Of a stretch of DNA of 64,000 nucleotides, positions 1,962-61,900 are shown piece after piece. The notes beneath the pieces are model-generated. The model made no database searches and was not told the origin of the DNA. It was given only the letters and a program-made list of their open reading frames with translations. The translations under genes were made by a program, and so were the position numbers. The DNA is from Ailanthus altissimus (lineage: Eukaryota > Streptophyta > Magnoliopsida > Sapindales > Simaroubaceae): positions 5,161,001 through 5,225,000 of the forward strand of contig CAMPEX010000001.1 in NCBI GenBank assembly GCA_946807835.1, written 5' to 3'. Every line of letters starts with the position of its first letter. Positions within the stretch are counted from its first letter, which is position 1.

Positions 1962-1969
1962 TATATAAA
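1962..1969 (+). promoter_or_regulatory. LTR TATA box
   Basis: TATATAAA sits 450 bp into the LTR, directly downstream of the GC-rich array, as expected for the U3/R boundary. Identical boxes are at 7939-7946 and 13917-13924. Confidence 0.7.
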
Positions 1970-2970: not shown

Positions 2971-3090
2971 TAATTAACTACTTTTTCGCCAATATTAATA
3001 CCAATCTTTCTAGTTTTTACTTCAGAATTTTTTTATTTTATTTTATTTTATTTTTATTAATTTAGTTTTACTTTCTTTCTTACGAGGTAC

Positions 3091-3231
3091 ATGCGAAGAT
3101 CGAAAAGTGAAGACTTGATTGCTTTTGATCCAGAGATTGAAAGAACTTTAAGAAGAATTAGAAGAGAGCAAAATCAAGTTAACACCATGGAAAATCAAGT
3201 ACCAATTGCACCTGACAATGAAGCAAACTAA
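3091..3231 (+). pseudogene. Detached N-terminal Gag fragment
   Basis: The reading frame starts MRRSKSEDL and continues with an FDPEIERTL-type sequence, the conserved start of Athila Gag proteins. It stops after 46 codons. Compared with the diverged copy at 33263-33427, where the frame runs on into a PLKEY segment, this copy lacks four bases near 3226. The main ORF is therefore out of frame with it. The same break is in the unit at 9068. Confidence 0.75.
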
Positions 3232-3329
3232 AGGAGTATGCTGTTCCCTTAGTCAATGGAATCCATTCAAGCATTCAAAGACCAACTGTTCAAGCTAATA
3301 ACTTCGAGATCAAGCCAAGCACAATTCAA

Positions 3330-5666: not shown

Positions 5667-5712
5667 AAGAAAAGGAAGCCCCGTCAAGCCGATGACATTA
5701 AATCAAGCGCTA

Positions 5713-5730
5713 CTTGGGAGGCAACCCAAG
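5713..5730 (+). other. Conserved post-coding hairpin (CTTGGG / CCCAAG)
   Basis: A 6-bp perfect stem, CTTGGG with CCCAAG, encloses the loop AGGCAA 47 bp after the gag stop. It is preceded by TTAAATCAAGCGCT. The same element occurs at 11690-11707 and, decayed, at 45187-45230 (minus) and 57088-57122 (plus), always just after the coding region. The second copy of this block differs by one SNP (5697 A versus 11674 G). Confidence 0.7.
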
Positions 5731-5825
5731 GAAATTATTATTATTATTATTATCATTTTTTTTAATTTTTTTTTTTTTTTTTTTCAGCATTTAAAAAAAA
5801 ATAAAATAAAATAAACCAAGACTTT

Positions 5826-6022
5826 CAGCGCTCCAGCGGCATGACATGGCGCGGCAGCGATAGGAAAATCGAGCACCACCGCCCCCGCGGTACACGCAAC
5901 ATCGCGCCAGCGCAAATTCCAGTAACTGTGCAGAAATCATCCTTCAGCGCTGCAGCGATAGAAGATTACCGCGGCAGCGCCAGAACATCGCCCCAGCGAT
6001 GGAGACTCAGCGCGGCAGCGAA
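5826..6022 (+). repeat. GC-rich motif array, internal copy
   Basis: Variants of CAGCGCTCCAGCGGC, GGCGCGGCAGCGA and CATCGCCCCAGCGATG follow one another at intervals of roughly 20-30 bp, about 160 bp after the gag stop. It resembles the U3 array but is not an LTR copy. A 99-codon open frame crosses it; I regard that as a product of the GC-rich composition. The same array is at 11804-12000, and its end is at 1-45. Confidence 0.75.
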
Positions 6023-7473
6023 AATTGACCAGGGAAGTCTCTTACTTTCACTTCTTTATTTTTCGACATTGGGGACAATGTCTAAATTAAGTTTGGGGGT
6101 GGGAAACACTTTCTTGTGTTCATTTTTCTGCATGATTTGAGTGGTCATTCTTGTGGGTTAAAATTTTTTTTTTAGTTACTTAGTTTTTTTTTTTTTTTTT
6201 GTTTAGTTAATTCATTTTTATTAGGTTTTGATAAGATGATCATTAGTCTATGATAAGAAAAAGAATACATGGTTGAATTTATTTTTACACATCCATAGGG
6301 AATGATAGATACTTGAGACAATTTTGATTACCTAAGTTTAGGAACAAATTTGACCTTACTTATAATCACCATTTTTTTGAGCACCTTATAAGCATGAATA
6401 GTTATAACTATTACTTAGAGATACTTATGCTTTAGGGAGTACACCACAGTCTCGAAGACCGATACTCTAGAACTTGTCTTTAATTACTACTTGAGGCGAA
6501 ATTCTAGAAAACACATGAATAGGGAAATGACATTAGGCCATCTTTGGACCGATTGAGCCTTTTTAGCCTACCATTTTAGAGTATATTTATCCCTAGTACC
6601 CTATTTTGAGCCTAATTACCCATTCTTTGGTTTAACCACATTACAAGCCCAAGACTTAAAGATTACTTATCTAGAAATTTGCCCATAACACCATAAACCT
6701 TGCATTTACTTAGAAATACTCTTGAAAAGAAAAAAGGTTGTGGTGATATGAGAAAAATAAAGTTTGGGTGGTATTTATCAATCTAAGTTTGGGGGTATAT
6801 AAAATTGAAAAAAAAAAAGAAAAAGAAAGAAAAAGAGAAAATAAAATACCCCCAGCTTAAGAAAAAGAAGAAATTCTTTGAAAAATAAAAGGTTGAAAAG
6901 AAAGATGGGAACACAATAAGTTTGGGGGAAGAGATAATATAAGGAAAAGAAGATCAAGAGGTTTCTAGGTAAAATCTAAGTGTTCATGGTGTAATTTGAA
7001 CTTCATATATTTATCCTTTTATCCCACCTTGACCCTAGCCTTACATTACAAGCTAAGTAAAGTCCTAAATAGATCCCTAGACATGTGATTTTCTACATTA
7101 GTGGAGAGTGGTAATAAAGACAAGCTTATGGAAGTGTCATTATACAAATTAAATGCCGAGACATCATCTTTTCTGTACAAACTAAAGTATAAAGTAAATC
7201 AAAGTATGGTTTTCGCTATTTGCTTGCTGCTTGCACACACACACATGGTGATTATTTATGAGGAAGAATGAGGGACTAAATAAAGATAGTTGAGAATTGT
7301 TAATAGCTATTTATCGATCTTAAGGATTTGTATCATTTCGTCAGCCTTTGAGACAATGATTTTGATCATCTTACTAGTTTATTATATTTTGTTTTATTTT
7401 GTTAAATAAGTCAAGTATAACCCTTTGTTTCTCTCTTAGTTTTATTTTATTGCTTGAGGACAAGCAAGTATTT
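6023..7473 (+). other. Non-coding 3' internal region of unit 1
   Basis: About 1.45 kb of AT-rich DNA has no credible ORF. It holds repeated AAGTTTGGGGG motifs, a purine-rich A/G tract near 6808-6846, and a TACCCCCAGCTTA that could pair with an upstream TAAGTTTGGGGGTA across a 49-nt purine loop (in the first copy, 807-820 with 870-882). Confidence 0.75.
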
Positions 7474-7488
7474 AAGTTTGGGGGAATT
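7474..7488 (+). other. Polypurine-tract-like sequence before LTR 2
   Basis: AAGTTTGGGGGAATT abuts the TG of the LTR, the position of the plus-strand primer. Copies are at 1497-1511 and 13452-13466. Confidence 0.8.
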
Positions 7489-8923
7489 TGATAAGGGCAA
7501 ATTTGTCATATATTTTCTCATGTTTTTATTATTGATATTTTATGATTTTATGAGAATAGATGGCTATTTATGTGCATTATTGTTATTTATAGGGACTTGA
7601 ACGAAATTTAAAGAAAGAACGCAAAAGGAGCGAAAACAGGGACTAAAATGCAAAGTTTTCAAAGTATGTGTCCATCGCCTCAGCGCCACAAGGATTTTCG
7701 CCCCAGCTCTGAAATAGTGATCGAAATAAGAAAAACGACCTGATTAAGTCGCGTCTAGCGCCCCAGCGGTATACAGTTACCGCCCCGGCGACGAGCCAGC
7801 GCCCCAGCGCTATTAACATAGCGCGCCAGCGGTGAAGGCTTTTTCACGCGTCGCCCCAGCGACAGATGCATAGCGCGCCAGCGGTAGTGCGAGTCCTAGT
7901 CCGACGAGAATTGAGATTTTCAAGCTCAAATCAATCCCTATATAAAGCCACTCGTTCCCAGCCTTCAAGAAACAATTCAAGACGACCCAAGAGCACCAAA
8001 AATACAGAGTACGAGTCTTGGAGAGCAATAGGAGCTTAATTGAAGCATCTTTAGAGAGAGATACAAGACGTTCTTCGGCATCAAGAGTTTCTAGGCAGCG
8101 CAATTAAGAGCAATTCGACGTCTATATCGGTTTGCGATTGATTGTATCATGTTTTATAATTATTTCTACTGCTGTTCTCTTGTAGCCATGAGCTAACTTG
8201 TTTTCTAGGGTTAATATTTGAACTCAATATGTGTGCTTAATTGCCATATCTTTTAATATTTGATAAACTTAGTCTTTTATTATTTAAATTACTTGTGTTT
8301 AATGCTTCAATATATCTGGCCAATATATGGTGAATGAGTTGGTAATATTATTGATAAACTCGGAAGAGGAATCATAATATTTAGACCTAGGTAATTTGAT
8401 GCATGATTGTAGAGTAACATTCAATGTTGCATATGCAAGTTTCAACTTAGGATAGGAATATACCTAATTGGCATGTATGATCAATAAGACCTAATCTTAA
8501 TGAATCTTAATTTATTACAAGTACCATAGGAATATAGGTATTTGGTAAACTAAGATATACTTGCATGACCTTGGAAGAGGCTTGTGAATACATTAGCGTC
8601 TTGATCAATAATAAAGACTAAGTGAGTTAAATATTAGAGGATTAATCATTAGAAACATATTGAGGGATAATATTAATCCTAGGTTCTCTCTACGTTGCTA
8701 TATCTTTAAATCTCATTACATTGTGTTTTTACTTTTATATTTTCTACATTCATTCTTGGATTTTTATTTTTCTGAATAATTATTAGAAAGACATAATTTT
8801 AGTAATTGGTTAATAAGAAGAAATTATCCCTGTGGGTTCGACATCCGACTAATTAGTCTCTTTATTACTTGCATACGATAGTGTATACTTGCACTTAATT
8901 TATGATATAGAAATATCGCATCA
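7489..8923 (+). repeat. LTR copy 2 (shared by both units)
   Basis: It is an LTR of the same length and, by eye, the same sequence as copy 1. It serves as 3' LTR of unit 1 and 5' LTR of unit 2. The TATA box is at 7939-7946. Confidence 0.95.
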
Positions 8924-8929
8924 AGTTTT

Positions 8930-8947
8930 TGGCGCCGTTGCCGGGGA
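8930..8947 (+). other. Primer-binding site, tRNA-Asp (unit 2)
   Basis: It is identical to the unit 1 site, an exact tRNA-Asp 3'-end complement 6 bp after the LTR. Confidence 0.95.
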
Positions 8948-9306
8948 TAATTAACTACTTTTTCGCCAATATTAATACCAATCTTTCTAGTTTTTACTTC
9001 AGAATTTTTTTATTTTATTTTATTTTATTTTTATTAATTTAGTTTTACTTTCTTTCTTACGAGGTACATGCGAAGATCGAAAAGTGAAGACTTGATTGCT
9101 TTTGATCCAGAGATTGAAAGAACTTTAAGAAGAATTAGAAGAGAGCAAAATCAAGTTAACACCATGGAAAATCAAGTACCAATTGCACCTGACAATGAAG
9201 CAAACTAAAGGAGTATGCTGTTCCCTTAGTCAATGGAATCCATTCAAGCATTCAAAGACCAACTGTTCAAGCTAATAACTTCGAGATCAAGCCAAGCACA
9301 ATTCAA

Positions 9307-11643
9307 ATGCTCAAGGATTCGGTACAATTTGGTGGACTGCCCAACGATGATCCAAACATGCACATTATCAACTTCTTGGAGATATGTGACACATTTAAAT
9401 ACAATGGGGTGTCCGATGATGCAATTCGACTAAGATTGTTTCCCTTTTCCTTGAAAGACAAAGCAAAAAGCTGGCTGTTATCACTTCCATCTGGATCTAT
9501 AGCTACATGGGATGATCTTGCACAAAAGTTCCTCGCCAAATATTTTCCACCTGCTAAAACTGCCAAGATGAGGAACGACATCACATCATTCCTACAACTA
9601 GATGGAGAATCTCTTTATGAGGCATGGGAGAGATACAGGGATATGCAAAGAAAATGTCCTCATCATGGAGTTCCGAAGTGGTTACTTGTACAAACATTCT
9701 ACAATGGATTAGCCGGTCAATTCAGAACAATAGTAGATGCTGCAGCTGGAGGAGCACTCATGAATAAATCAACTGATGAAGCATATGATCTACTAGATGA
9801 GATGGCGTCCAATGCCTATCAATGGCCCACCGAAAGGTCAACTACAAGAAAGATCGCTGGATTACATGAAGTAGACACTTTGACTACATTATCTGCCCAA
9901 GTCAACCTCTTGACCAAACAATTAAGCAACTTGGGAGTTAATGCCATCAAGAGTCAACCTATCACTTGCGATTTCTGTGGAGGAAATCATGCTAATGGAC
10001 AATGCATGGAGACTGCTCAATATGTAGGGGACTTCAACCGCAACAATCCTAACTCTAATTTTTACAATCCTGGATGGAGAAATCACCCCAACTTCTCATG
10101 GAGCAACAATAATCAAGGACAGTATTCCAAAGCTCCTCCTGGCTTCCAACCGCAAATTCAGCAAGAGAAGAAACCAGACATTGAAGACATGCTCCTGCAA
10201 TACATGAAGAAAACAGATGCACTCTTTCAAAGTCAAACAGCTTCACTTAGAGCCTTGGAAAATCAAGTAGGGCAGCTCGCAACAGCAATAAACAATCGAC
10301 CTCAAGGAACTCTACCAAGCAACACCGAAGTCAATCCAAAAGGAAGCGTAGAACAGTGCCAAGCCATCTCCCTAAGAAGTGGTAAAGTCTTACATGACAA
10401 TACTCCTCAACCACAGCTTTCAGAAATGATAGAGAAGGAAAAAGAACCAGTGGTCCAGCAAGATGACGTGCAACCATATAGACCACCTATACCATTTCCT
10501 CAGAGATTACAGCAGCTTAGAAACCAAGAGAAGAGTGATGAGACGCAGAAAAGCATAGAATCTGGTATTCAAGTACAAGAACAGAAAAGTGAAAATGCAG
10601 CAGAAGATACCAGTAGCAACCTGCAGAAGCAACCTATGCAGTCATTCACTCCACCACCTCCATTTCCTCAGAGACTGCAAAAGAAGAAACTAGATAAGCA
10701 ATTTTCTAAATTTCTTAATATTTTTAAGAAATTACATATTAATCTTCCTTTTGCAGATGCACTGGAGCAAATGCCGAGCTATGTGAAATTTATGAAGGAA
10801 ATCCTATCAAAGAAGAGAAAAATAGATGACTTCGAGACTGTGGCCCTGACAGAAGAGTGTAGCGCCATCCTCCTAAAGAAGCTACCTCCAAAGCTTAAAG
10901 ATCCTGGGAGTTTCACCATACCATGCTCAATTGGGAATTATGATTTTGGGAAAGCACTTTGTGATCTGGGAGCCAGCATTAATCTTATGCCATTGTCCGT
11001 GTATAAAAAGTTGGGACTGAGAGAAGCCAAGCCAACAAATATCACACTTCAGTTAGCAGATCGTTCTCTCACCTATCCTAAGGGATTAATTGAAGATGTG
11101 TTGGTTAAGGTCGATAAATTCATCTTCCCTGCCGATTTTATTGTTTTGGATATGGAAGAAGACAAGGAGATCCCAATCATCCTTGGAAGACCCTTCCTAG
11201 CCACTGGAAGAACAATTATTGATGTGCAAAAAGGGCAGTTGACCATGAGAGTACAAGAGGATACAGTCACTTTTAAGGTCTTCAAGGAGATCAAATTACC
11301 AGCTGAAAATGAAGACTGTTTCTGCATTAATGTGGTGCATCCAAGCGTTAAGCAAATTAAAGATATGGAGACATTGGATCCTCACATCCGAAAAAGAGCA
11401 TTAAAGCATAGGAAGGCAAGAGAGAAAAAGAAAAAGCAGCATCACGACGAAGCAAGCAAAGAGAAAGAAAAGGAAAAACCATCTCCTCAGTCTAAGATTA
11501 AAGTCTTTCCGGAGAGACATAAGGAGAATCCAGCAAAAGATACTGCCCGAGATTTAATTACAAAAATATGGAAGCCAAAAAAGAAGAAAGCCAGCAAGAT
11601 CACTCACACAAATGCTTCCACCAACATCTTCGACCCACCATAA
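9307..11643 (+). CDS. gag-pro: Gag-protease polyprotein, Athila-like (778 aa), second copy
   Basis: The protein is identical to that at 3330-5666, with the same Gag core, CX2CX3HX4C knuckle, DLGAS protease motif and Lys-rich tail. The upstream N-terminal fragment (9068-9208) carries the same frameshift. Perfect conservation of an intact frame in both copies points to very recent duplication rather than to selection on each copy. Confidence 0.92.
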   Translation: MLKDSVQFGGLPNDDPNMHIINFLEICDTFKYNGVSDDAIRLRLFPFSLKDKAKSWLLSLPSGSIATWDDLAQKFLAKYFPPAKTAKMRNDITSFLQLDGESLYEAWERYRDMQRKCPHHGVPKWLLVQTFYNGLAGQFRTIVDAAAGGALMNKSTDEAYDLLDEMASNAYQWPTERSTTRKIAGLHEVDTLTTLSAQVNLLTKQLSNLGVNAIKSQPITCDFCGGNHANGQCMETAQYVGDFNRNNPNSNFYNPGWRNHPNFSWSNNNQGQYSKAPPGFQPQIQQEKKPDIEDMLLQYMKKTDALFQSQTASLRALENQVGQLATAINNRPQGTLPSNTEVNPKGSVEQCQAISLRSGKVLHDNTPQPQLSEMIEKEKEPVVQQDDVQPYRPPIPFPQRLQQLRNQEKSDETQKSIESGIQVQEQKSENAAEDTSSNLQKQPMQSFTPPPPFPQRLQKKKLDKQFSKFLNIFKKLHINLPFADALEQMPSYVKFMKEILSKKRKIDDFETVALTEECSAILLKKLPPKLKDPGSFTIPCSIGNYDFGKALCDLGASINLMPLSVYKKLGLREAKPTNITLQLADRSLTYPKGLIEDVLVKVDKFIFPADFIVLDMEEDKEIPIILGRPFLATGRTIIDVQKGQLTMRVQEDTVTFKVFKEIKLPAENEDCFCINVVHPSVKQIKDMETLDPHIRKRALKHRKAREKKKKQHHDEASKEKEKEKPSPQSKIKVFPERHKENPAKDTARDLITKIWKPKKKKASKITHTNASTNIFDPP

Positions 11644-11689
11644 AAGAAAAGGAAGCCCCGTCAAGCCGATGACGTTAAATCAAGCGCTA

Positions 11690-11707
11690 CTTGGGAGGCA
11701 ACCCAAG
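11690..11707 (+). other. Conserved post-coding hairpin, unit 2
   Basis: It has the same CTTGGG/CCCAAG stem and AGGCAA loop as unit 1. Confidence 0.7.
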
Positions 11708-11803
11708 GAAATTATTATTATTATTATTATCATTTTTTTTAATTTTTTTTTTTTTTTTTTTTCAGCATTTAAAAAAAAATAAAATAAAATAAACCAAGAC
11801 TTT

Positions 11804-12000
11804 CAGCGCTCCAGCGGCATGACATGGCGCGGCAGCGATAGGAAAATCGAGCACCACCGCCCCCGCGGTACACGCAACATCGCGCCAGCGCAAATTCCAG
11901 TAACTGTGCAGAAATCATCCTTCAGCGCTGCAGCGATAGAAGATTACCGCGGCAGCGCCAGAACATCGCCCCAGCGATGGAGACTCAGCGCGGCAGCGAA
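11804..12000 (+). repeat. GC-rich motif array, internal copy of unit 2
   Basis: It copies the array at 5826-6022, displaced by 5978 bp because of the extra T upstream. Confidence 0.75.
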
Positions 12001-13466
12001 AATTGACCAGGGAAGTCTCTTACTTTCACTTCTTTATTTTTCGACATTGGGGACAATGTCTAAATTAAGTTTGGGGGTGGGAAACACTTTCTTGTGTTCA
12101 TTTTTCTGCATGATTTGAGTGGTCATTCTTGTGGGTTAAAATTTTTTTTTTAGTTACTTAGTTTTTTTTTTTTTTTTTGTTTAGTTAATTCATTTTTATT
12201 AGGTTTTGATAAGATGATCATTAGTCTATGATAAGAAAAAGAATACATGGTTGAATTTATTTTTACACATCCATAGGGAATGATAGATACTTGAGACAAT
12301 TTTGATTACCTAAGTTTAGGAACAAATTTGACCTTACTTATAATCACCATTTTTTTGAGCACCTTATAAGCATGAATAGTTATAACTATTACTTAGAGAT
12401 ACTTATGCTTTAGGGAGTACACCACAGTCTCGAAGACCGATACTCTAGAACTTGTCTTTAATTACTACTTGAGGCGAAATTCTAGAAAACACATGAATAG
12501 GGAAATGACATTAGGCCATCTTTGGACCGATTGAGCCTTTTTAGCCTACCATTTTAGAGTATATTTATCCCTAGTACCCTATTTTGAGCCTAATTACCCA
12601 TTCTTTGGTTTAACCACATTACAAGCCCAAGACTTAAAGATTACTTATCTAGAAATTTGCCCATAACACCATAAACCTTGCATTTACTTAGAAATACTCT
12701 TGAAAAGAAAAAAGGTTGTGGTGATATGAGAAAAATAAAGTTTGGGTGGTATTTATCAATCTAAGTTTGGGGGTATATAAAATTGAAAAAAAAAAAGAAA
12801 AAGAAAGAAAAAGAGAAAATAAAATACCCCCAGCTTAAGAAAAAGAAGAAATTCTTTGAAAAATAAAAGGTTGAAAAGAAAGATGGGAACACAATAAGTT
12901 TGGGGGAAGAGATAATATAAGGAAAAGAAGATCAAGAGGTTTCTAGGTAAAATCTAAGTGTTCATGGTGTAATTTGAACTTCATATATTTATCCTTTTAT
13001 CCCACCTTGACCCTAGCCTTACATTACAAGCTAAGTAAAGTCCTAAATAGATCCCTAGACATGTGATTTTCTACATTAGTGGAGAGTGGTAATAAAGACA
13101 AGCTTATGGAAGTGTCATTATACAAATTAAATGCCGAGACATCATCTTTTCTGTACAAACTAAAGTATAAAGTAAATCAAAGTATGGTTTTCGCTATTTG
13201 CTTGCTGCTTGCACACACACACATGGTGATTATTTATGAGGAAGAATGAGGGACTAAATAAAGATAGTTGAGAATTGTTAATAGCTATTTATCGATCTTA
13301 AGGATTTGTATCATTTCGTCAGCCTTTGAGACAATGATTTTGATCATCTTACTAGTTTATTATATTTTGTTTTATTTTGTTAAATAAGTCAAGTATAACC
13401 CTTTGTTTCTCTCTTAGTTTTATTTTATTGCTTGAGGACAAGCAAGTATTTAAGTTTGGGGGAATT

Positions 13467-14901
13467 TGATAAGGGCAAATTTGTCATATATTTTCTCATG
13501 TTTTTATTATTGATATTTTATGATTTTATGAGAATAGATGGCTATTTATGTGCATTATTGTTATTTATAGGGACTTGAACGAAATTTAAAGAAAGAACGC
13601 AAAAGGAGCGAAAACAGGGACTAAAATGCAAAGTTTTCAAAGTATGTGTCCATCGCCTCAGCGCCACAAGGATTTTCGCCCCAGCTCTGAAATAGTGATC
13701 GAAATAAGAAAAACGACCTGATTAAGTCGCGTCTAGCGCCCCAGCGGTATACAGTTACCGCCCCGGCGACGAGCCAGCGCCCCAGCGCTATTAACATAGC
13801 GCGCCAGCGGTGAAGGCTTTTTCACGCGTCGCCCCAGCGACAGATGCATAGCGCGCCAGCGGTAGTGCGAGTCCTAGTCCGACGAGAATTGAGATTTTCA
13901 AGCTCAAATCAATCCCTATATAAAGCCACTCGTTCCCAGCCTTCAAGAAACAATTCAAGACGACCCAAGAGCACCAAAAATACAGAGTACGAGTCTTGGA
14001 GAGCAATAGGAGCTTAATTGAAGCATCTTTAGAGAGAGATACAAGACGTTCTTCGGCATCAAGAGTTTCTAGGCAGCGCAATTAAGAGCAATTCGACGTC
14101 TATATCGGTTTGCGATTGATTGTATCATGTTTTATAATTATTTCTACTGCTGTTCTCTTGTAGCCATGAGCTAACTTGTTTTCTAGGGTTAATATTTGAA
14201 CTCAATATGTGTGCTTAATTGCCATATCTTTTAATATTTGATAAACTTAGTCTTTTATTATTTAAATTACTTGTGTTTAATGCTTCAATATATCTGGCCA
14301 ATATATGGTGAATGAGTTGGTAATATTATTGATAAACTCGGAAGAGGAATCATAATATTTAGACCTAGGTAATTTGATGCATGATTGTAGAGTAACATTC
14401 AATGTTGCATATGCAAGTTTCAACTTAGGATAGGAATATACCTAATTGGCATGTATGATCAATAAGACCTAATCTTAATGAATCTTAATTTATTACAAGT
14501 ACCATAGGAATATAGGTATTTGGTAAACTAAGATATACTTGCATGACCTTGGAAGAGGCTTGTGAATACATTAGCGTCTTGATCAATAATAAAGACTAAG
14601 TGAGTTAAATATTAGAGGATTAATCATTAGAAACATATTGAGGGATAATATTAATCCTAGGTTCTCTCTACGTTGCTATATCTTTAAATCTCATTACATT
14701 GTGTTTTTACTTTTATATTTTCTACATTCATTCTTGGATTTTTATTTTTCTGAATAATTATTAGAAAGACATAATTTTAGTAATTGGTTAATAAGAAGAA
14801 ATTATCCCTGTGGGTTCGACATCCGACTAATTAGTCTCTTTATTACTTGCATACGATAGTGTATACTTGCACTTAATTTATGATATAGAAATATCGCATC
14901 A
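13467..14901 (+). repeat. LTR copy 3 (right end of the array)
   Basis: It is the same 1435-bp LTR with TATA at 13917-13924. It ends CGCATCA and, unlike the other two, is followed by unrelated DNA instead of a PBS. This marks the right edge of the array. Confidence 0.95.
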
Positions 14902-30594: not shown

Positions 30595-31721
30595 GAGATA
30601 AGTACATCTTTATCCCTCTAATTTGGTCCATTATTCAATTTTGTCCATTTTGTTTTAAAGTACCCAGATTCATCCCTCTCCGTTAGTTCAGTTACAATTA
30701 AATCTTACTATTGAATGGCAAAATCGAAACTTAATAAGAAAAATTCATACACTGTGACACGTGTTAAATGATTATAAATAAATAAATAAAACTCTAATAT
30801 AGACTACCACCATCGCAACAGACATTCGTCGGTGGCTCGCCATCGAACTCTAAAAATAAAAATGATTAAAATTTATATTATTGGACTATATTTTTTGTGA
30901 TCTACACAATGGTGAGATCATTTTTAACCCAAATAAAAGACTAGAAGACAGCCAAATACACAATGAAAGCCATGTGTGACGGCGGCGACCAATGGTGCAT
31001 GTTAAATGAAGCGATTGATGTGCACCATCGGCACTGTTGGATAGATCGGTGGTCTATCTATCTAACAGTGTCGGCGGTGAACCTCACCACTGTTTCCACA
31101 GAGGAAGAAAACGGCCATGGCAGTGCATGTCAACTGTTAATAAATCAACCGTTGATCTATCCAATAGTATTAGTAGTGCACGTCACCGCTGCCTCGTTTG
31201 ACGTGCACTATCTGTGGCCGCACACCTCCCATTGCTCTCATTGCATATTTGGTTATCTTCTGATCTTTTTTGTCAAAATCTCATCATTGTATAGATCACG
31301 AAAAATAGAGTTAATGATATAAAATTTAAACATTTTTATCGTCGGAGTCCAGCCGGATGTCTATGCGAATGAAGGGTCTATGTTTTTAAATAATTTATTT
31401 TAAAAATAAAATTTAAAAACTATTATTAAAATTGAACATATCCAAATATGCCACGTATTCATTTTTTTTAATCAATGACCAATCATTTATTGACACGTGA
31501 ACACTTTAATTATTTTTTTGATGATGTGTCAGTCACTTTAAATATTACAGCATATGCTCATAACTATCAGGGATAAAACATACATTTTATCAAAGTAACT
31601 GCATTTCTGTTAAACTTAATGGCAACTAACTAGCGGAGAGGGATAAATTTGAGTAATTTAAAACAAGAGGGAGAAAATTAAGTAACGGGTCAAATTAGAT
31701 GAAAAAAGATGTCTTTATCCC
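30595..31721. mobile_element. Fold-back, Mutator-like (MULE-type) element, 1127 bp
   Basis: The ends are inverted repeats of about 105 bp. The left starts GAGATAAGTACATC, and the reverse complement of the right starts GGGATAAAGACATC. Flanking 9-bp sequences TTGTTTTTA (30586-30594) and TTATTTTTA (31722-31730) match at 8 of 9 positions, the duplication size of Mutator-like elements. Inverted similarity continues inward (around 30850-30920 with 31270-31345), so much of the element can fold back. The interior holds short inverted subrepeats, including 24-nt arms at 31023-31046 and 31056-31079. No transposase is seen. A 119-codon open frame at 30963-31322 crosses these repeats and is probably not a gene. 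Confidence 0.8.
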
Positions 31722-31750
31722 TTATTTTTATTCTTAATTATTAGAGGTAT
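31645..31750 (+). repeat. Left copy of a 106-bp direct duplication
   Basis: It aligns without gaps to 34523-34628 with roughly 14 differences. It comprises the right end of the fold-back element plus 29 bp of its outside flank. That argues the locus itself was duplicated when the insert 31751-34522 arrived. Confidence 0.85.
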
Positions 31751-31751
31751 T

Positions 31752-33095
31752 TGATGCAATATTTATATATTTTAAGATCAAGCGCAAGTATAAGCCATCA
31801 TAATAAGTAATAAAGGGATTTATAAAGTCGGATGTCGAACTCACATGAATAATTTTTATTTTTTACCAAATACTAAAATTATATATTTCTTGTAATTATT
31901 CAAAAAAATAAAATCTTAATTTTACAATAAATTTAAGTAAAATAAAAGTGCAGAAAAAAATGGCAGCTTAAATAAAATAAGAAAATAGCAATATAGAAAA
32001 AGCCTAGGGTTAATTACTATTCTTCAATATATTTTTTAAAAATTAATCATTTTAATATTTTTATTCTCAATTCTTATTATTGGTCAAGACACTAATGTAT
32101 TCACAAGCCTCTCCTAAGGTCATGTAAGTATATTCTAATTTATAAATACCTATATTCCTGTGGTACTTATAATAAATTAAGATTCATTAAGAACAAATCT
32201 TATTGACCATACATGCCAATTAGATATATTCCCATCTTAATTCGAAACTTGCATATGCAACATTGAATGTTACTCTACAATCATGCATCAAATTATCTAA
32301 GTTTAAATACAATGTTCCGAGTTTATTAAAGTATTACAAATCAATCATAATATTGATCAGATATAATGAAACATTAAGAATAAATAATTTGAATAATGAA
32401 GAATTGAGTTCAAATAAATATTAAAAAGATCCAACAATTAAGCTCACATATTGAGTTCAAGTAATAACCAACCCTAGAAAATAAATTTAGCTCATGATAA
32501 CAAAAAAATTATGACTAAAAAATAAAATAAACATGATACAACCAAAAGCAAACCAATATAGATGTTAATTCGCAGTTGATTAATACGCCAAAGATTCGTA
32601 AATAATCTGTTGTTTTCTTGAATTCCTCTTGTTTCTCTCTTTAAAAATTACTCTTCTTTAATGTGTTATGGCTCGAAAAGCTCTAAGTTGTGTGCTCTCT
32701 TTAGGTTTGAAATAAGAGGCCTTTATATAGAGATTGATTAGAGTATTGAAGTTGTATTTCTTTTTTACTGTAGCGCAATCATTGTTTATAGAATATTGTT
32801 TATGGTTATTATTCCACTCACTGTTCACGAGTTACTGTTCATGCACGTTATTCACCACTAGAATGAAGAGCTTTGGGCATTAGAATTTTGTGGGGGTGAA
32901 GTACTGTTCATCGTTACGGCAATGTTACTGTAGCAAACATACTGTTCATGGAACTGTATTAAGGTACTGCAATAATTTTGATATTTTATCTTATTTTTCT
33001 TAGATTTTTATCACCAATTGCTCAATTGACTCCAAACTTATAAAATGACGATAAAATATATAAAAAATTTAATATTTTTTTTATTAAAATGAACA
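31752..33095 (-). repeat. LTR in minus orientation (left part of the composite insert)
   Basis: The reverse complement matches the U5 and R of the 1512-2946 LTR family through most of its length. It starts TGATGCAATA, the counterpart of ...CATCA, and ends ...TTTATCA, the counterpart of TGATAA. Its U3 differs: in place of the GC-rich array it has repeats of ACTGTTCATG and TACTGTAGC-like words (about 32760-32960). Confidence 0.8.
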
Positions 33096-33130
33096 ATTTA
33101 TCAAGTTAAAAAAGTGAAAATAATAAATAT

Positions 33131-33505
33131 AATTTACGATTTGTCAGGGATAATAATCTACATTTTTCTCAATATTAATACCAATATTTCTAGTTGTTAC
33201 TTCAGATTTTCTTTTCTTATATTTTTTTAAAATCTAGTTTTACTTTCTTTCTTTCGAGGTATATGCAAAGATCAAAAAGTGAAGACTTGATTACATTTGA
33301 TCCAGAAATTGAAAGAACTTTAAAAAGAATTAGAAGAGAGCAAAATCAAGTCAACAATATGAAAGATCAAGTACCAAATGCACCCAATAATGATGCAAGA
33401 CCACTAAAGGAATATGTTATCCCTTAGTCAATGGAATTCATTCAAGCATTTAATAAACAAATGTTCAAGCTAACAACTTCGAAAATCAAGCCAAACACAA
33501 TCCAA
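33131..33505 (+). pseudogene. PBS-to-gag 5' fragment
   Basis: It matches 2960-3310 of the tandem family: a decayed PBS end (TTTGTCAGGGATAAT), the leader, then an ORF starting at 33265 with MQRSKSEDL, which runs on in frame to a PLKEYVIP segment before a stop at 33425-33427. It keeps the four bases missing from the tandem units. It ends abruptly near AAACACAATCCAA, where LTR sequence begins. Confidence 0.8.
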
Positions 33506-34441
33506 GAACATCGAGAACATATAACACAAGTATTAAACAGTAATTAGAGCTTAATTGAAGCAACCATAGAGAGAGATTCAAGGTGTTCATCGGCATCAAG
33601 AGTTTCTTAGGCAGTGCAATCAAGAACAATGCAACGTCTATATCGGTTTGCTATTGATTGTATCATGATTTCTTATTATTTTCTCCGTAGTTCTCTTGTA
33701 GCCATGAACTAATTTTTTTTTCTAAAATTAATACTTGAACTCAATATGTGCGCTTAATTGTCATATTTATTTTTTAATGTTTAATAAACTTAGTTCTTTA
33801 TAATTCAATTTACTTGTTCTTAATGCTTCAATATATCTGGCCAATATATGGTGAATGAATTGGTAATATCTTTGATAAACTCGGAAGAGACATCATTGTA
33901 TTTAGACTTAGATAATTTGATGTATGATCGTTGAGTAATATTCAATGTTGCATATGTAAGTTTCAAATTAGAATAAGAATATACCTAATTGGCATATGTG
34001 ATCAATAAGACTTAATCTTAATGAATCTCAATTTATTACAAGTACTATAAAAATATAGGTATTTGGTAAATTAAGGTATACTTGCATGACCTTGGGAGAA
34101 GCTTGTGAATACATTAGTGTCTTGATCAATAACAAGAACTAAAGGAATTAAATATCAGAGGATTTATCACTGGAAAATATATTGAAGGATAGTATTAACC
34201 CTAAATTTTCTCTATATTGATATCGTCCAAATCTCTTTATATTGTTTCATTGCTTTTATATTTTCTAAATTCATTGTTAGATTTTTTTTTGAATAATTAC
34301 TGGAAAGACATAATTTTAGTATTTGATTAAAAAGTAGAAATTATCCTTATGAGTTCGATATCCAACTCTTTTATCCCTTTATTACTTGCATACGATAGTG
34401 TATACTTGCACTTAATTTTAAGATATAAAAATATAGCATCA
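33506..34441 (+). repeat. R-U5 part of an LTR (no U3)
   Basis: It begins with AAGAACATCGAGAACATA, equivalent to the sequence about 40 bp downstream of the TATA box in the LTR at 38701, and runs to the LTR 3' end ...AGCATCA. It therefore corresponds closely to R plus U5, the content of minus-strand strong-stop DNA. Confidence 0.8.
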
Positions 34442-34447
34442 AATTTT

Positions 34448-34522
34448 TAGTGCTATTATCAGGGATTGAACTTAGGTCACCTGTGTGACAGGCGGAAATA
34501 CTCACCACTATACTACAACAAC
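34448..34522 (-). other. Full-length antisense copy of primer tRNA-Asp(GUC), reverse-transcribed
   Basis: All 75 positions align without a gap to the reverse complement of mature plant tRNA-Asp as I know it, from the CCA end (TAG for TGG) through the TPsiC arm, anticodon (GAC in antisense) and D arm to the 5' nucleotide. I count 16 differences; 15 are C-to-T or G-to-A. The start lies exactly 6 bp after the LTR, as in the functional PBS at 2953. Nuclear plant tRNA genes do not encode CCA, so this came from a mature tRNA. It is not a functional tRNA gene. Confidence 0.92.
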
Positions 34523-34628
34523 AAATTTAAATAATTTAAAATAAGAAGAACAAAATTAAATAACGGATCAAATTAGATGAACAAAGATGTCATTCTCCCT
34601 TGTTTTTATTCTTAATTATTGGAGGTAT
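34523..34628 (+). repeat. Right copy of the 106-bp direct duplication
   Basis: It is the gapless counterpart of 31645-31750 and starts immediately after the last base of the antisense tRNA. Confidence 0.85.
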
Positions 34629-38700: not shown

Positions 38701-41700
38701 TGATAAGGGCATATTTGTTATATATTTTCTCATATTTTATTTTAATATTTAGTGTTTTATGAGAATAAATGGCTATTTATGTGCATTATTGTTATTTATA
38801 GGGACTTGAATGAAATAAGAAAATCAGAAAAAAAAAAAATGTTTAAGTCGCAGTTTAGCCCTTGCGCCAACTCGCCACCGCACCAGCAATAACCCAGTGC
38901 TCTAGTGCCAGCACCTCATCGCTTTAGTGGTGAGGCCTTTTACACGCAGTGCCCCAGCGACAACAACATAGCGCGCCAGCGGTAGTATGATTCCTAATCC
39001 ATTAAAAATTGAGATTTTCAATCTCAAATCAATCCTTATAAAAGGCCATTCGTCCCCAGCCTTTAGAGAACATCGAAGAACATCAAGAACATACAACATA
39101 AGTCTTAGAGAGCAATGGGAGCTTAATCGAAGCAGCCATAGAAAAAGATTCAAGGCGTTCTTGGGCATCAAGAGTATCTTAGACAGTGCAATCAAGAGCA
39201 ATTCTACATCTATATCGGTTTGTATTAATTATATCATGATTTCCTATTATTTTTACCGCTATTCTCTTGTAGCCATGAACTAAATTTCTTTCTAAGGTTG
39301 ATACTTGAACTCAATATTTGTGCTTAATTGCCATATCTTTTTAATATTTAACAAACTTAGTTCTTTATTATTCAAATTACTTATTCTTAATACTTCAATA
39401 TATATGGCCAATATTGTTAGGGTTAGTGCTTACGTGCCATCCCTGAATATACATATACTTGTGTATTTATACAAGTGTAAATTTTTATTAAATCATTAAT
39501 ACCCATTTATATGGTATTATGCAATGTAACGTTACACACATTGAAGATCTGAAGAAGTTTGGATTAGATCTAAAAGAGTTTAGATAAGGGCTTATGGTTA
39601 GCCATGCTGAAAAATATAAATGTTAAATGTTAGCACAGTTAAGTGTTAGCTGGTTATGATACTCAGCACATCCAAGAGTTGGAGCCTTGTCTGTAATGGG
39701 ACATAGACCTAGGAATATACTAGTAACTGTATAGTTGTAAGAGTTGTAATTAGGTGCCAGAAAATACTAGTTGCGCAAGTATGTTCTTGAATAATTGTCC
39801 CTAATCTATTTCTGTTGATGCGAGTCTGTCGGTGGATACCTTTATATATAGATCAGCATATGTCATACCTATAGGGTATAGATGGTCGTTTCTAGCCAAC
39901 CGTGAGCTTGGAGCTCGTATTGATATATGGGTATCCAGTTAGGATTGGATATGAGACAGACTTATAAGGGCCTCCGATAGACATCCTATATAAGCTGTTA
40001 ACAGAGGGTCCTCTCAAGTTGAGTAGTATACGTGGTCCTTTGACCTGAGTGCCACGGTGGGCTTGTAAATAATCCACCATACTTTGGTTCCACGCATGTC
40101 ACAGACCTTTCATTATATGACCGTTGGGTGTTGTTGGGTATGGTCCGATGCTTATGGAGTCTGGTGTGTACAGATATGGGATCCGTCAGCTCGTATAGGG
40201 AGTTCAATATCTAGATGCTTTGAAACTGTATCTCAAAAAATCTTATGGTCACAAGTATCAATCTCGAAAAAGACTTCCGTTAGGGTAGAGCAATATGGTA
40301 AAAGAGTTTACATATATTGTTCAGTGAGATGCTAGTCTGGAGATAAGACATTGATGAGCACTAGAGGATTTAATGGTGATAATCTATATCCCCGTACATC
40401 TAGGATATCATGACAGAAGAACTATACGTATGTGTTGTAACCTCAACTTGTATGGTTTAACGCGCTGATTTGTATATCCACGACCTGTTTGTGGGGCATT
40501 GCTCACAAACTCATAGAATAGTTCCATTTGATGAATCGAACATAGGACTTAGGGAGTCCCGTGATATGGAGTGTACTCGTTATGCACTAGGGCAGCGTGC
40601 TAGATTAAATTGTTTAATCCAGCAATATTCAGTACTACCACTGGAACGCATACGTGTCTGTATTTAAGTGCTAAATATAATAATTAGTTAATAATTGTTA
40701 TTTACTAATTATATAAGGACACATGACGTATTTTAGACCTTTAGTTAAGTTTATCCAAGTGTGAGATTTGGTGGGACCCACTAAGGGTAAACTTGGTAAC
40801 TATTTATAAGGGGAAAATGGTCATTTCTTACTTTAATTATTTAATAATTAAATAATTAAAATATCTCTCTTATTATATTATATAATATATTATTATTATT
40901 TATATTATATTATATTATTATTATATTATATATATATAAAGAGACAGAAAGAAAAAGTGTGTGTGTGTAGAGTGTTTGGCCATTTGGCCGAGAGAAAGAA
41001 AGAAAGAAATGGAGAGGAGAAAGAGAAAGAAGAAGAAGAAGAAGAAGAAAAATAAGGGAAAATGAAACAAAGTGAAATTGTTTCATTTTTCTCTATGGTG
41101 TCTTGGAAGCAATTCAGAATTGTTTCAGCCTCAATTTCTTATTCTTTAAGAGAAAATGATATAAACACACACCGACCATTTTGGGGATTAAGAGTTAATC
41201 CTATGCTGAATATAGGACTGCTATTCTAGCTCACCAAGCCCACCGAGTTGGTGACTAGAACTGTCCACGAGTTGGTCTCTATGCGGACTCTAGAAAAATA
41301 CGTGTATAATATTACACATTGAGGTGAGTTCTCAAAATTTCTAATATATTAATGTGATTAATATATTTCATTTATTGTGTTTATTGTTTAATTTCACGCT
41401 TCCGTCGTGTATTATATGTATAGGATACGTATATTAGGCACTAGACATAATTACACATGCATACACCCACATGTACTAAATCGCTGCTAAAAAATATATG
41501 GTGAATGAATTGATAATATTTTTGATAAACTTAGAAGAGGAATCATTATATTTAGACCGAGATAATTTGATGCACGATTATAGAGTAACATTCAATGTTG
41601 CATATGCAAGTTTCAAATTAGGATATGGATATTCCTAATTAGCATGTATGATCAATAAGACCTAATTTTAATAAATCTTAATTTATTACAAGCACTATAA

Positions 41701-42073
41701 AAATATGGGTATTTGGTAAATTAAAGTATACTTGCGTGACCTTGGAAGAGGCTTGTGAATACATTAGTGTCTTGGTCAATAACAAGAACAAAGGGAATTA
41801 AATAGCATATTGAGGGATAGTATTAACCTTAGATTTTCTCTATATTGCTATCCTCCAAATCTCTTTATATTGTGTCCTTACTTTTATATTTTCTACATTC
41901 ATTCTTATATTTTTATTTTTCTAAATAATTACTAGAAAGACATAATTTTAGTACTTGGTTAAAAAGAATATATTATCCATGTGGGTTCGACATTCGACTA
42001 TTTTGTCCCTTTATTACTTACATACGATAGTGTATACTTGCACTCAATTTTAAAATATAGAATCATCTAATCA
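38701..42073 (+). mobile_element. Solo LTR of the tandem family, split by a nested insertion
   Basis: It starts TGATAAGGGC and ends ...CTAATCA. It is related over its length to the LTR at 1512, including the decayed GC-rich array (about 38846-38985) and TATAAAAG at 39037-39044. Without the nested element it is about 1290 bp. A perfect 5-bp target duplication CTGTG flanks it (38696-38700 and 42074-42078). No internal region remains, so it is a recombined solo LTR. Confidence 0.88.
39415..41492 (+). mobile_element. Solo LTR-like insertion, family S copy 1 (about 2.1 kb)
   Basis: It starts TGTTAGGGTTAGTGCTTACG and is flanked by AATAT (39410-39414, 41493-41497). Removing it restores the host LTR reading GGCCAATATATGG. 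Inside are an AT-repeat stretch (about 40860-40940), TATATATATAAAG, a (GAA)n tract (about 41025-41055), and the hairpin GAAGCAATTC/GAATTGTTTC (41106-41126). No coding sequence is credible. It is homologous to 52167-54728 and 59390-61505. Confidence 0.8.
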
Positions 42074-45230: not shown

Positions 45231-46860
45231 TTAATGTCTTGCTTTTTGACTTATGGTAGGTCATATTGCATATCTAAGGCATCTTTCTTATAGAACTTAA
45301 ATCAATGTCTTTATGTGTTAACATTCTTTTTCTTTGACTTCTATAACTTCAAGAGATAATCTTTAAAAAGTAGCTTTGACCACTTTGCTTTAAGCTTTCT
45401 TGAAAAGACTTTAATCTTAGATTGGAAGACTAAACCCCATTAGTTAGTATCTATTATTTTTTTTTATGAGCTTGTTTCGCTGTTTCTTGGTTATGCATTT
45501 GTGCGGAGATGCCTTTTCGTGAGCTTAGGGTTGGATGGATTCTATCACCTTTGGCTTATGAGGTGGTTTTACTTTCTCAGGCATTACTATTTTCACCTTA
45601 AAGTAATGGGACAAATTTTTGAGAACTGCCAATGAACAAAGGTCTTCTCTTGGAGTTATTGTGGAAGCGGTAGTGGTGGAGTGTATAGGCTATATTTGAT
45701 TTGAATTGCCACCACTTCCTTTTTTTATGCATTGGCTCCTCTTATGCTTGCCTATTTTATCTATCATGACTCTCCTCCCATTGATATGTTTTAGTAGCTA
45801 ATGATAGTTTTGGTTCACTTCTTGAGGTGGTTGCTTAGCATTGTTCTCTACTGTCTATTAGATTCATCTATGTGTTATTAGGTAATGGGTTTTATGGATG
45901 GATATTCATTGTTGAAGCCAACAATCCAACTTTGGTTTCCAAAGTCTGTAAAGAAGCCTACTTGACTTTGAAAAAGTTTGTTCATTTTATTTATGCATTG
46001 TATCTGTATCTCTTCTATGGTAGATTTCTTTTCATATTGTAGTTGAGGTTGAATTGTAGTAAGATACCTCAACTCTGTATTGTAGTAAGTAAATGCAGGG
46101 TTGTACTATTACTAGTTATAATGTCATTTGTATTATACAGTTTCTACGCATTGGCCATTTGGATGGTTGTCATCACAAAAATCACAAGTGACATGTTCTC
46201 TCCTCTCAGTGACTTCTCTTGGAGCAACATTTTTAGCTGTTCATTGAGAACTGTTGAAGGCCATTTTCTCAAACAAGTCATAAGCTTCATTAACAAACTT
46301 GTTCATTAATGCACCTTTGCTACAACATCAATTACTATCTTTAAATGCCTTACCAACTCATTGTAGAATGTTTGCACAAGTAGCCATTTTAGAATTCCAT
46401 AGTGTGGACACTTTTTCAACAATTCTTTAAATCTCTCCTAAGCTTCATCTAGAGATTTTGAATTATACTACACAAAAGACGTGATGACATTCCTCATCAT
46501 TGTTGTATTTCTCGGTGGAAAATATTTGTTAAGAACTTCTAAGCTAATTCATCCCATGTTGTAATAAACCTTGATAGTAGTGACCTTAGCCAAATATTTG
46601 CTCAGTTTTGAAGTAAAAAATTGAATACTCAAAGTTGTATTGCATCATCCGAGACTCCATTGTATTTGTATAAATAGCAAATTTCTAAGAAATTTACAAT
46701 ATGCTCATTTGGATTCTCATTTAGCAGTTCACTGAATTATACTGAAGGTTTCAACAATTAAATCATCTCTAGTTGGATTTTAAAGTAGTCGACATCTATG
46801 AAAAGTTTTTGGATGATAGACTGTATGTCGCCTATTTGTGGGATAACAAAATCTCATTGA
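45231..46860 (-). pseudogene. Gag pseudogene of the minus-strand element
   Basis: The minus strand contains HIVNFLEICYLYKYNGVSDD, FITTWDELA, a KKCPHYGI-like segment and NKLFQSQVGF in successive but broken frames. These correspond in order to the 778-aa Gag of the tandem family. There are many stops and frameshifts. Confidence 0.75.
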
Positions 46861-58920: not shown

Positions 58921-61900
58921 TGATGAGCATTTAGCTATTTATTTATGTTTATTGATAAAATATAGGTTTTTAACCCACAAAATAAAGATATTGAAAAAAT
59001 CGAACGCAAAATGAAGAAGTTAAAGAGAGTGGCCTAGCACCGCAGTGCCCAAGATAGTAAGTACAACACTACAACGCCCCCGCGCCATGGCCGTGGTGAT
59101 TAAGGTAGAGAGTTGGGCAGCGTAGAGCTCGAGGTAGAGAGTTAAGCACCGCAGTGACCATACACTAGCATCGTGACACCCACGCAACTAAAAGAACTTG
59201 ACCTTTTTAAGTTCTAATACGACTTGGACTCGAAGCTACAGCCCCTAGATTTACGAAGAACTATAAAAGCCCCTTTTTTCATAGTAAAAAAAGAAGAGCA
59301 ATAGAGAAAAGTCAAGAGCAAATACAAAACACCTTTTAAGAGAGATTAACGTAAAAAGATTGAAGATTAAAGAGTAAGGATTGTACAACTATAGGAGATC
59401 TAATATACATGAGTGTATGCATATGTAATTGTGTTTATTGCCTAAAATACGTATCACATACATATTTAACGCGACGGAAGTATTAAAATAAACAATAAAA
59501 ATAATAAATAATATATTAATCACATTAATATATTAGTAAGGTTGAGAAATCACCTGAATATATAACGTTATACACGTATTTCTTCAGAGTCCGCATAGAG
59601 ACCATCTTGTGGGCAGTTCTAGTCACCAACACGGTGGGCTTGGTGAGCTAGAACAACAACCTCATATCCAGCACAGGATTAACTCTTAACCCAAAATGGC
59701 CGGTTATAAGTATTCTTTCTTTTCTCTAAAAGGATAAGAAACAAAAATTGAAGCAATTCACAATTGCTTCTAATGACACCATAGAGAAAAATAAAATAAT
59801 TTCATTTTTTCTATTTGTTTTTCTTCTTCTACTTCTTTCTTCGTTGCCATTTCGTTTCTTTTCTTTCTCTCCATTTTCCATTTCCATTTCCTCCAAAACA
59901 CATACCCTTCACTTACACACATATCTCTCTCTTTATATATCTAATATAATAAAATAATCATATAATATAAATAATAATATAAATAGATGCCAACTATTTG
60001 GCACCATTAAATAAAATAATAATAAATAATATAATATTATATAATATAATAATATATAATTAAATAAAATAATAAGATATTTTAATTATTTAACAATTAA
60101 ATAATTAATGTGTGAAATAACTATTTTGCCCTCATAAATAGTTACCAAATCTACTCTAGTGGGTTCTACCAAATTTCATACTTAGGTAAACTCAACCGAG
60201 AGTTCAAAATACATCACATGTCCCTATATAATTAACAAATAACAATTATTGACTAATTTTTGTATTTAACACTTAAATACAGACACACACGAATTTCTGT
60301 AATAGTGCTGGATATTACTAGATTAAATAATTTAATCCAGTACGCTACCCCAGTGCACAACGAGTACACTCCATATCGCTGGACTCCCTAGGTCCACACT
60401 CGATTTGTCAAATAAAACTATTTCATGAGTCTGTGAGCAATGCCTCACACACATGCCACAGATATTACAAATCAGTGCGTTGAACCATGCAAGTTGAGGT
60501 TACAATGCAAATGTATAGTCCTTCCGTCATGATATCATGGATGTGCGGGGATATAGATTATCACCGTCAAATCCCCTAGTGTTTATCCATGTCTTATCTC
60601 CAGACTTGTATCTCACTGACCAATATGTGCAAACTCTTTTGCCATATTGTTCTACCCTAACGGAAACTCTTTCCTGGGATTAATGCTTGTGGCCATAAGA
60701 CTTTCTGAGATGCAGTCTAGAAGAATCTGGATATCTAACTCCCTTTGCAAGCTGACGGATCCCATATCTGTACACACCGGACCCCATAAGCATCGGACCA
60801 TACCCAGCGACACCCAATAGTCACATCATGAAAGGTTTGTGACAAGAGTGGAACCAAAGTATAGTGGATCACTTATAAGCCCACCGTGGCACTTGGGTCA
60901 AATGACCATGTATACTACTACTAAACTCAAGAGGACCCTCTGTTGATGGCTTACATAGGGTGTCTATCGGAAGCCCTCGTGGGTCTGTCATATATCTAAT
61001 CCTAACTGGATACCCATATGTCAATACGAGCTCCAAGCTCACAGTCGACTAGGAACGACCATCTATACCCTATAGGTATGACATATGCTAATCTATATAT
61101 AAAGGTATCCACTGACAGACCAGCATCAGTAGAAATAGATTAGGTACAATTATTTGAGAACATACTTGCGTAACTAGCATTTCCTGGCACCTGATTGCAA
61201 CTCTTGCAATTATGCAGTTACTAGTATATTCACAGGTTTATGTCCCATTACAGATAAGGCTCCAACTCTTAGATCTTCGCTGAGTATGACATTTAGCATT
61301 TATATCTCTCAGCGTGGCTAACTATGAGCCTTTATCTAAACTCCTTTAGATCTGATCTGAACTCCTTTAGATCGTACAATATCTGTAATGTTACATTGCA
61401 TAGTACCATATTAATGAGTATTGACGATTTAATAGGAATGTATACTTGTATAAATATATAAATATATATACATTCAAAGATGGCACATAAGCACCAACCC
61501 TAAGAACAACATACAAGATAGAAGGAGAAATAATTCAAAGGCATCAACTTTGTATTATTACTTTTATTTTCTTTTACTTGATGTCTTTGTTAGTCATGTC
61601 TTTAATTCATTACTTTGACACTCTTATATTCATTATGAACTAAATTTTATTGATCTAGGTTTAGACTCTTAAACCCAATATGTAGTTGTTTTCTATTATT
61701 TCTTTTAGTTTATGAACTCAATAAAGTAGATTGATTCATTCTATTTTGTGTTTAATGCTTCTTTATATCTAGCCAATATAATGATTGTTTAAGGAACCAT
61801 AATGAACTCGACAGAGGAATTACATGTGTTTAGCCTAAGATAGTTTGATACATCATTATAGGGTAACAACTATAAATTTCATGTAGGATAGAAATATATC

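Follow-up and report, generated by a model that had tools for sequence, protein, structure and literature searches.

A complete copy of primer tRNA-Asp behind a retrotransposon LTR in Ailanthus altissimus, very likely a chromosomal fossil of abortive reverse transcription

We describe a retrotransposon LTR that is followed in the chromosome by a copy of an entire primer tRNA. The window, i.e., the whole stretch of 64,000 nucleotides of Ailanthus altissimus DNA that was analysed, has at 34448-34522 the gap-free reverse complement of a complete tRNA-Asp(GUC) with its CCA end. This copy is fused to an LTR end and spacer, and its register is that of a normal primer-binding site (PBS). We consider it very likely that the locus is the chromosomal fossil of an abortive reverse-transcription product, in which DNA synthesis went past A58 through the whole attached tRNA, with later capture of the product by end joining. 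The copy is part of a rearranged insert. It is not unique, and the event recurs with several kinds of LTR end. Read-through of the whole primer followed by chromosomal insertion had been proposed in an earlier, sequence-only reading of this DNA, and the proposal is supported here by the register, the CCA, the end at tRNA nucleotide 1, the target duplication and the recurrence. What is said below on the enzyme that did the copying, on whether the copied tRNA was methylated and on how the window insert was assembled is inferred.

An ungapped scan of both window strands, with the host's own tRNA-Asp plus CCA as query, gives 60 of 75 identical bases at 34448-34522, while the runner-up site on either strand has 33/75. 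The sequence-only reading had described a whole, ungapped tRNA-Asp with CCA and an intact anticodon, placed directly after an LTR and a 6-bp spacer. All of this is borne out, and its coordinates are exact. The LTR ends in ...GCATCA at 34441 and is followed on the plus strand by the 6-nt spacer (34442-34447), with a spacing equal to that of an intact copy (2947-2952). Then come 18 nt that match host tRNA-Asp and are equivalent to the normal PBS (34448-34465, plus strand), with the CCA complement included and one transition within. The remaining part (34466-34522, plus strand), which is also covered by the Rfam tRNA model, is complementary to tRNA-Asp between A58 and nucleotide 1, both included. 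It would be the read-through part, and 49/57 of its bases are identical to host tRNA-Asp. The base opposite A58, at 34466, is T, i.e., correctly read. All 15 differences from host tRNA-Asp along the 75 bases are C>T or G>A, as expected for decay of methylated plant DNA, and none falls in the anticodon. The earlier count of 15 such changes among 16 differences was right in type and wrong in number, as it is 15 of 15 against the host genes. The Rfam covariance model for tRNA (RF00005) matches the minus strand at 34451-34522 over its full length with 28.6 bits, slightly below the gathering score of 29 (E 0.0024 in a 2-kb search and E 0.077 in the whole window). With ARAGORN, the window yields no tRNA gene.

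How the LTR family normally looks can be seen in the same window. Three near-identical LTRs, with ends at 2946, 8923 and 14901, form an array of LTR-internal-LTR-internal-LTR. In the intact copy, which serves for comparison, the LTR (1512-2946, plus strand) has the same end and the same 6-nt spacing, and then 18 nt of tRNA-Asp complement (2953-2970) and an unrelated leader. Past these 18 nt, one more base (T) agrees with the tRNA and then complementarity is lost. The second copy in the array is nearly identical to the first, and the third LTR (end 14901) runs into other DNA. Only one ORF as long as 120 aa or longer overlaps the interval 2947-7490 of the intact copy. This internal ORF (3330-5666, plus strand) has gag and aspartic protease domains (PF03732, 2.2e-21; PF13650, 2e-5). 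The PBS and the gag type suggest that the family is Ty3/gypsy and Athila-like. The array at 1-14901 repeats every 5977-5978 bp, is 99.98% identical over 8924 bp, and is either a very recent tandem retrotransposon duplication or an assembly effect. A further LTR of the family, at 38926-42073, is split by a different repeat of ~2 kb at 39415-41492, and this repeat has an inverted relative at ~59510-61506.

Reverse transcription has, as one of its standard steps, a stop at modified A58, which the 2026 review PMC13191261 describes mainly from HIV-1 work. According to that review, plus-strand strong-stop synthesis normally ends at the 18 PBS nt owing to tRNA modifications, m1A58 above all (PMC13191261), and this agrees with the earlier statement that only about 18 nt are copied because of a modified A58. 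It further reports that copying of in-vitro-transcribed (unmodified) tRNA runs on to the 5' end, that the fully extended product is inactive in transfer, and that HIV-1 synthesis can go beyond A58 when the TRMT6-TRMT61A methyltransferase is mutated, as in TRMT6-mutant cells (PMC13191261). We hypothesize that a comparable failure produced the locus in the window. The primer tRNA would stay attached to the 5' end of the minus-strand DNA, and plus-strand synthesis would copy U5, the 18 PBS nt and then the rest of the tRNA, with A58 either unmethylated or bypassed. The 3' end would now have a 57-nt non-homologous tail, and after annealing to the PBS complement it would not be extendable. Because the tail would block extension, the product would as a rule be a dead end. 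Host end joining would then place it in a chromosomal break.

The target site in the window is consistent with such a capture. The insert spans 31751-34522 between the two copies of a 106-bp target-site duplication, so that tRNA nucleotide 1 is its last base on the right. The two copies of the duplication (31645-31750 and 34523-34628, both plus strand) are direct repeats with 93/106 identical bases that exactly flank the inserted material, and the right copy adjoins tRNA nucleotide 1 without a gap. This target DNA belongs to a dispersed repeat, and among the matches listed for it (best 40 of 178 candidates) the right duplication copy is the closest over its length (88%). In an alignment with four other members of this repeat, the family homology stops near 31724, and both window copies keep a common flank to 31750, ~25 bp past the repeat end (both by eye). 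As this flank beyond the repeat is common to both window copies, they represent a single target site that was duplicated. Two unrelated copies of the repeat are ruled out by the same ~25 bp, which are absent in the four other members. None of these four aligned members contains a tRNA gene. The earlier reading had named a tRNA-Asp gene with the same flanks at the empty site in related species as evidence against itself; in this comparison within the same genome there is no such gene, and the insert lies between the copies of the 106-bp duplication.

From left to right, the insert consists of an inverted LTR, a PBS-leader-gag piece, an LTR piece, the spacer and the tRNA copy. The inverted LTR (31751-33135, minus strand) is of the same family and abuts the left duplication with its U5 end and one spacer base. 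It has 77% identity to the intact LTR by BLAST over 31751-32565 and was followed to 33135 by local alignment; its U3 part is strongly diverged and its start is uncertain within ~30 bp. Next, in element sense, are the PBS end, the leader and the start of gag (33141-33505, plus strand; 84% to intact-copy 2961-3329). The gag/LTR junction (33494-33505, plus strand) has a 9-nt microhomology, and the same 9 nt are found at intact-copy 3321 (gag) and 1995 (LTR). The LTR piece itself (33494-34441, plus strand) runs from approximately the predicted R start to the U5 end, with 83.4% identity to intact-copy 2002-2971 over 33494-34466. LTR position 1995 is 33 nt past the start of a TATA box (1962), and the RNA start is therefore expected at about position 1995; this R start is a prediction from the TATA box only. 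Because the LTR piece begins near the predicted RNA 5' end and has 9 nt of microhomology to gag, the strong-stop DNA may have been transferred to the wrong place, with gag as acceptor where the 3' R would be the normal one. Our explanation does not account for the inverted LTR or for the ~30 bp that separate it from the PBS remnant, and both count against it. The locus is not a solo LTR. Solo LTRs come from LTR-LTR recombination, contain no PBS or tRNA sequence and keep the short integrase duplication. The window locus is similar to them in having a single LTR without a coding region, and it is distinguished by the PBS/tRNA sequence after the LTR and by the 106-bp duplication.

A simpler form of insertion is found at L035 (C27:4243723, minus strand), which has a complete LTR, the spacer and a complete tRNA copy within a repeat. 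Its LTR starts TGATAAGG at 3537 of the oriented locus, and its tRNA copy ends at 4978. The same LTR type occurs in L040, where the match starts at the same base as the L035 LTR (94.6% over 148 bp). Five other copies of the target repeat are continuous across the empty site of L035, and the insertion has ~10 bp of target missing and no duplication. Thus, an integrase-type duplication of 4-6 bp at two canonical LTR ends is lacking, with the 106-bp duplication in the window and the ~10 bp loss in L035 in its place. The ~10 bp would have been lost at the break, and the 106-bp duplication would be as from a widely staggered, filled-in break. L039, L034 and L049 also appear to start at or near an LTR start, with no polypurine tract ahead (by eye). 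In these three loci and in L035, the structure is the one expected if plus-strand strong-stop DNA with read-through was captured.

The sequence-only reading had proposed a search for other LTR ends followed by more than 18 nt of tRNA complement, and such ends are recurrent. There are at least 15 LTR-spacer-tRNA-Asp junctions with ~60 nt or more of the tRNA, in the window and in L031, L032a, L032b, L033, L034, L035, L037, L039, L040, L042/L049, L044/L050, L057, L058 and L059. Since only the best-scoring candidates were scored, 15 is a lower bound. The genome was searched with the window junction (42 matches listed, best 40 of 45 candidates), the L035 junction (42 matches listed, best 40 of 310 candidates) and the L040 junction (9/9 candidates scored, with the LTR-only matches C6:17494145 and C15:12884422 outside the junction count). 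In addition, a 29-nt pattern with up to 3 mismatches gave 8 matches, and its reversed control gave 0. Of these 8, L031 and L035 repeat matches of the other searches, L042 and L044 are chimeras, L041 and L043 are short extensions, and L046 and L047 have leaders of the normal kind (classed by eye). The short extensions go only ~6 nt past the PBS and were left out of the count.

The tRNA copy reaches mature nucleotide 1 in 11 of the 15 junctions, i.e., the window, L032a, L033, L034, L035, L037, L039, L040, L057, L058 and L059 (the last judged by eye, with an indel). Junctions at this nucleotide indicate that a complete tRNA was attached in these cases. The other four copies end earlier or unclearly, at ~60 nt in L049, ~63 in L032b, ~68 in L031 and ~68-71 in L050. 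The position of the CCA, the spacer and the register recur at all 15 junctions with several LTR ends; the exact TGG is found in 8/15 and a T in the first place in 15/15.

Other arrangements suggest further fates of the read-through ends. L037 has an ordinary LTR-PBS-leader stretch that switches to a partial LTR, and this LTR is followed at its end by a full tRNA copy. L033, L040 and L050 each have an LTR, a tRNA copy and an inverted LTR in succession. In L050 (4760-5100) these are back to back and form a palindrome with the tRNA copy at its center, and the bases right after the tRNA copy (~68-71 nt) are the inverted LTR. L033 and L040 have fillers of ~40 nt that align poorly to each other. L032b (L032:5225-5300) has the PBS and ~45 further nt (a tRNA copy of ~63 nt) and then continues in the family's own leader. 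The letters ACCAC and TAACT are shared at this join, and the leader is without the 116-126 nt that lie between the PBS and the join in three other copies. The L032b tail thus seems to have been rescued by misplaced strand transfer. L058 (reverse complement, 722-800) has a full tRNA copy, A-rich bases and then an apparent second spacer, PBS and leader. For the sequence that follows this tRNA copy, BLAST has no match to the intact element at E 1e-3, and permissive scoring yields a 56-nt alignment of PBS and leader with 71% identity (single-pair E 1.7e-6; PBS 11/18). Judged from this alignment, an old second PBS is likely there. Read-through products may therefore not always be dead ends, as L032b and perhaps L058 were rejoined to the element leader. 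Among the short extensions, L041 (reverse complement, from 1505) has an LTR, the PBS, ~6 nt of overextension and antisense gag-to-leader sequence (intact-copy 3777 to 2817, 71%), and L043 has ~6 nt past the PBS followed by sense gag-protease sequence.

These structures bear on which enzyme copied the tRNA. A host repair polymerase, and not the retrotransposon reverse transcriptase, could have done so while filling a tRNA-bearing cDNA end during end joining. The ~10 bp loss in L035, the 106-bp duplication in the window and the ~40-nt fillers in L033 and L040 are all marks of end joining and agree with this. Against it, the rejoining to the leader in L032b and the microhomology jump from gag to LTR in the window resemble template switching in reverse transcription. 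Copying of ~57 modified RNA nucleotides is also more natural for a reverse transcriptase. We regard a repair polymerase as rather unlikely, and favor copying by reverse transcription.

The loci could also be related by descent, if the tRNA copy were a fixed part of one chimeric repeat family amplified as a unit. In that case they would not be independent. Four of the 15 (L032a, L032b, L033 and L040) do have a common LTR family, and L033 and L040 have a common inverted arrangement. However, the right-hand flanks are different in all 15 junctions, the end points and LTR ends differ as well, and the fillers of L033 and L040 align poorly. We therefore think amplification of a single chimera improbable as the source of the series, and favor repeated events.

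The host tRNA-Asp genes could be another source of the copies. At least 26 of them are present; the 26 inspected (L004-L011, L013-L030) are identical in 72/72 bases, and none encodes CCA. The earlier claim that plant tRNA genes are without an encoded CCA holds for these 26/26 inspected genes. L038 is tRNA-Asp-like with 2 bases different from the 26 genes and is also without CCA, and L036 is a tRNA-Asp match without TGG. The inspection took in the 26 genes and L038, and left out L012, the C1 match, C14:3087341 and C8:23074574. L061 (C6:28245972), a single, decayed tRNA-like sequence out of register, was dropped as a chimera as it has no LTR in front. The window copy itself as a tRNA gene or pseudogene is ruled out by the CCA complement at the junction (with one transition), the LTR flank, the spacer and the target duplication.

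With at least 26 identical genes available, and with 15 nt in common between them and the PBS (CCA part excluded), recombination or gene conversion of a PBS with a genomic tRNA-Asp gene or pre-tRNA could have supplied the rest of the tRNA. Its products should enter the 5' flank of the gene or the pre-tRNA leader, whereas 11/15 go no further than mature nucleotide 1. In the window and L035, target DNA follows immediately after it. Such recombination is therefore largely refuted for the two loci, and we hold it to be very improbable overall. Copying of the attached primer remains the explanation that we prefer. A repeat without an LTR that matches 34466-34522 had been named earlier as evidence against read-through, and none was seen; the inspected matches are tRNA-Asp genes, CCA-less gene-like sequences and LTR chimeras (42 matches listed, best 40 of 45 candidates). 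Among the same inspected matches (best 40 of 45 candidates), no dispersed LTR-free SINE family with a tRNA head, body and tail was seen, which makes a SINE an improbable source of the tRNA part. LTR-free gene-like or decayed tRNA-Asp sequences do occur in the genome (L036, L038, L061), but chance insertion of an LTR beside a tRNA-Asp gene or pseudogene, or a SINE-derived tRNA part, is scarcely credible, because the position of the CCA, the spacer and the register recur at 15 junctions, the 26 genes are without CCA and the aligned members of the target repeat are without a tRNA.

The copies may also retain a trace of how A58 was read. In 14 of the 15 chimeras (L059 omitted for its indel; partial rows cut at or slightly before the match end), 120 differences from host tRNA are C>T or G>A, transitions of other kinds number 5 and transversions 15. 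Just 2 of these transversions lie at A or T sites, each of them a T>A opposite A58 (L035 and L057). In the other 12/14, the base opposite A58 is the normal T, and thus A58 may have been unmethylated in most. It is known that dA is often inserted opposite 1-methyladenosine. The T>A in L035 and L057 is a possible methyl-A signature in the sequence, with small numbers at two loci only.

Taken together, this genome could hold a readable record of how far primer tRNA-Asp was copied. On such a reading, the primer was a whole, 5'-processed tRNA rather than a fragment, and A58 was usually read correctly and sometimes misread as expected for 1-methyladenosine. Misplaced strand transfer saved some of the ends and thereby put tRNA sequence into the leader (L032b; possibly L058). 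We put this forward tentatively, with somewhat less than even confidence. If it is true, primer read-through is a route for tRNA sequence into retrotransposons, as the old SINE-origin model requires. In that model, Ohshima and co-workers reportedly proposed in 1993 that tRNA-derived SINEs came from strong-stop DNA with the primer tRNA attached. The chimeras are the kind of intermediate that it reportedly assumes, i.e., LTR cDNA with the whole primer tRNA inserted in the genome. Unlike in the model, no multicopy SINE derived from the chimeras was seen here among the best candidates, which were scored.

Capture at double-strand breaks is known for yeast Ty1 cDNA. For plants, Vaughn and Bennetzen reportedly described in 2014 how patch-type break repair leaves insertions accompanied by long tandem duplications. 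The window likewise has a long duplicated target, and its insert is rearranged LTR cDNA with a tRNA copy. According to the available part of PMC4516963, retrotransposon cDNA is captured at double-strand breaks in mouse zygotes. Repair insertion is common to break-captured retrotransposon DNA and to our loci, where the tRNA copy also marks the captured cDNA end and the extent of primer copying. The HIV-1 in vitro product P1 in the available part of PMC13191261 is similar in having an LTR and primer complement past A58 to the tRNA 5' end; here the element is a plant LTR retrotransposon, the primer is tRNA-Asp, and the product is fixed in chromosomes at several sites. Helenus and Ajax, LTR retrotransposons derived from small-RNA genes, have a link to tRNA as well, which in the part of PMC10886601 that was available is a matter of PBS choice, e.g., anticodon-loop primers, and not of a primer copy behind the LTR.

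The fossil series would give the end points of synthesis on the tRNA, and would show that in a plant the A58 stop failed often enough for repeated inheritance. Priming by partial tRNAs (tRFs) is described in the recent plant review PMC12786077, and beside it the fossils would show that a complete mature tRNA primed at least these cDNAs. Any assembled plant genome can be screened for such fossils. Full primer copying was already known in vitro. The sequence-only reading had called a chromosomal record of full read-through rarely described, and in agreement with this none of the titles and abstract openings listed from the open-licence literature concerns copies of a full tRNA behind LTRs in chromosomes, most subscription journals being outside this scope. 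A recurrent chromosomal record was likewise not found among the papers listed.

Two other features of the window are worth recording. The Rfam model snoR71 (RF00097) has four matches above threshold, at 3588-3694, 9565-9671, 46394-46500 and 62971-63077. The first of these is antisense within the gag ORF (3330-5666), and RF00097 may in part be retrotransposon gag sequence. A hairpin at 31018-31084 with weak similarity to mir-8 (28.2 bits, with a threshold of 47) is perhaps a MITE-like inverted repeat.
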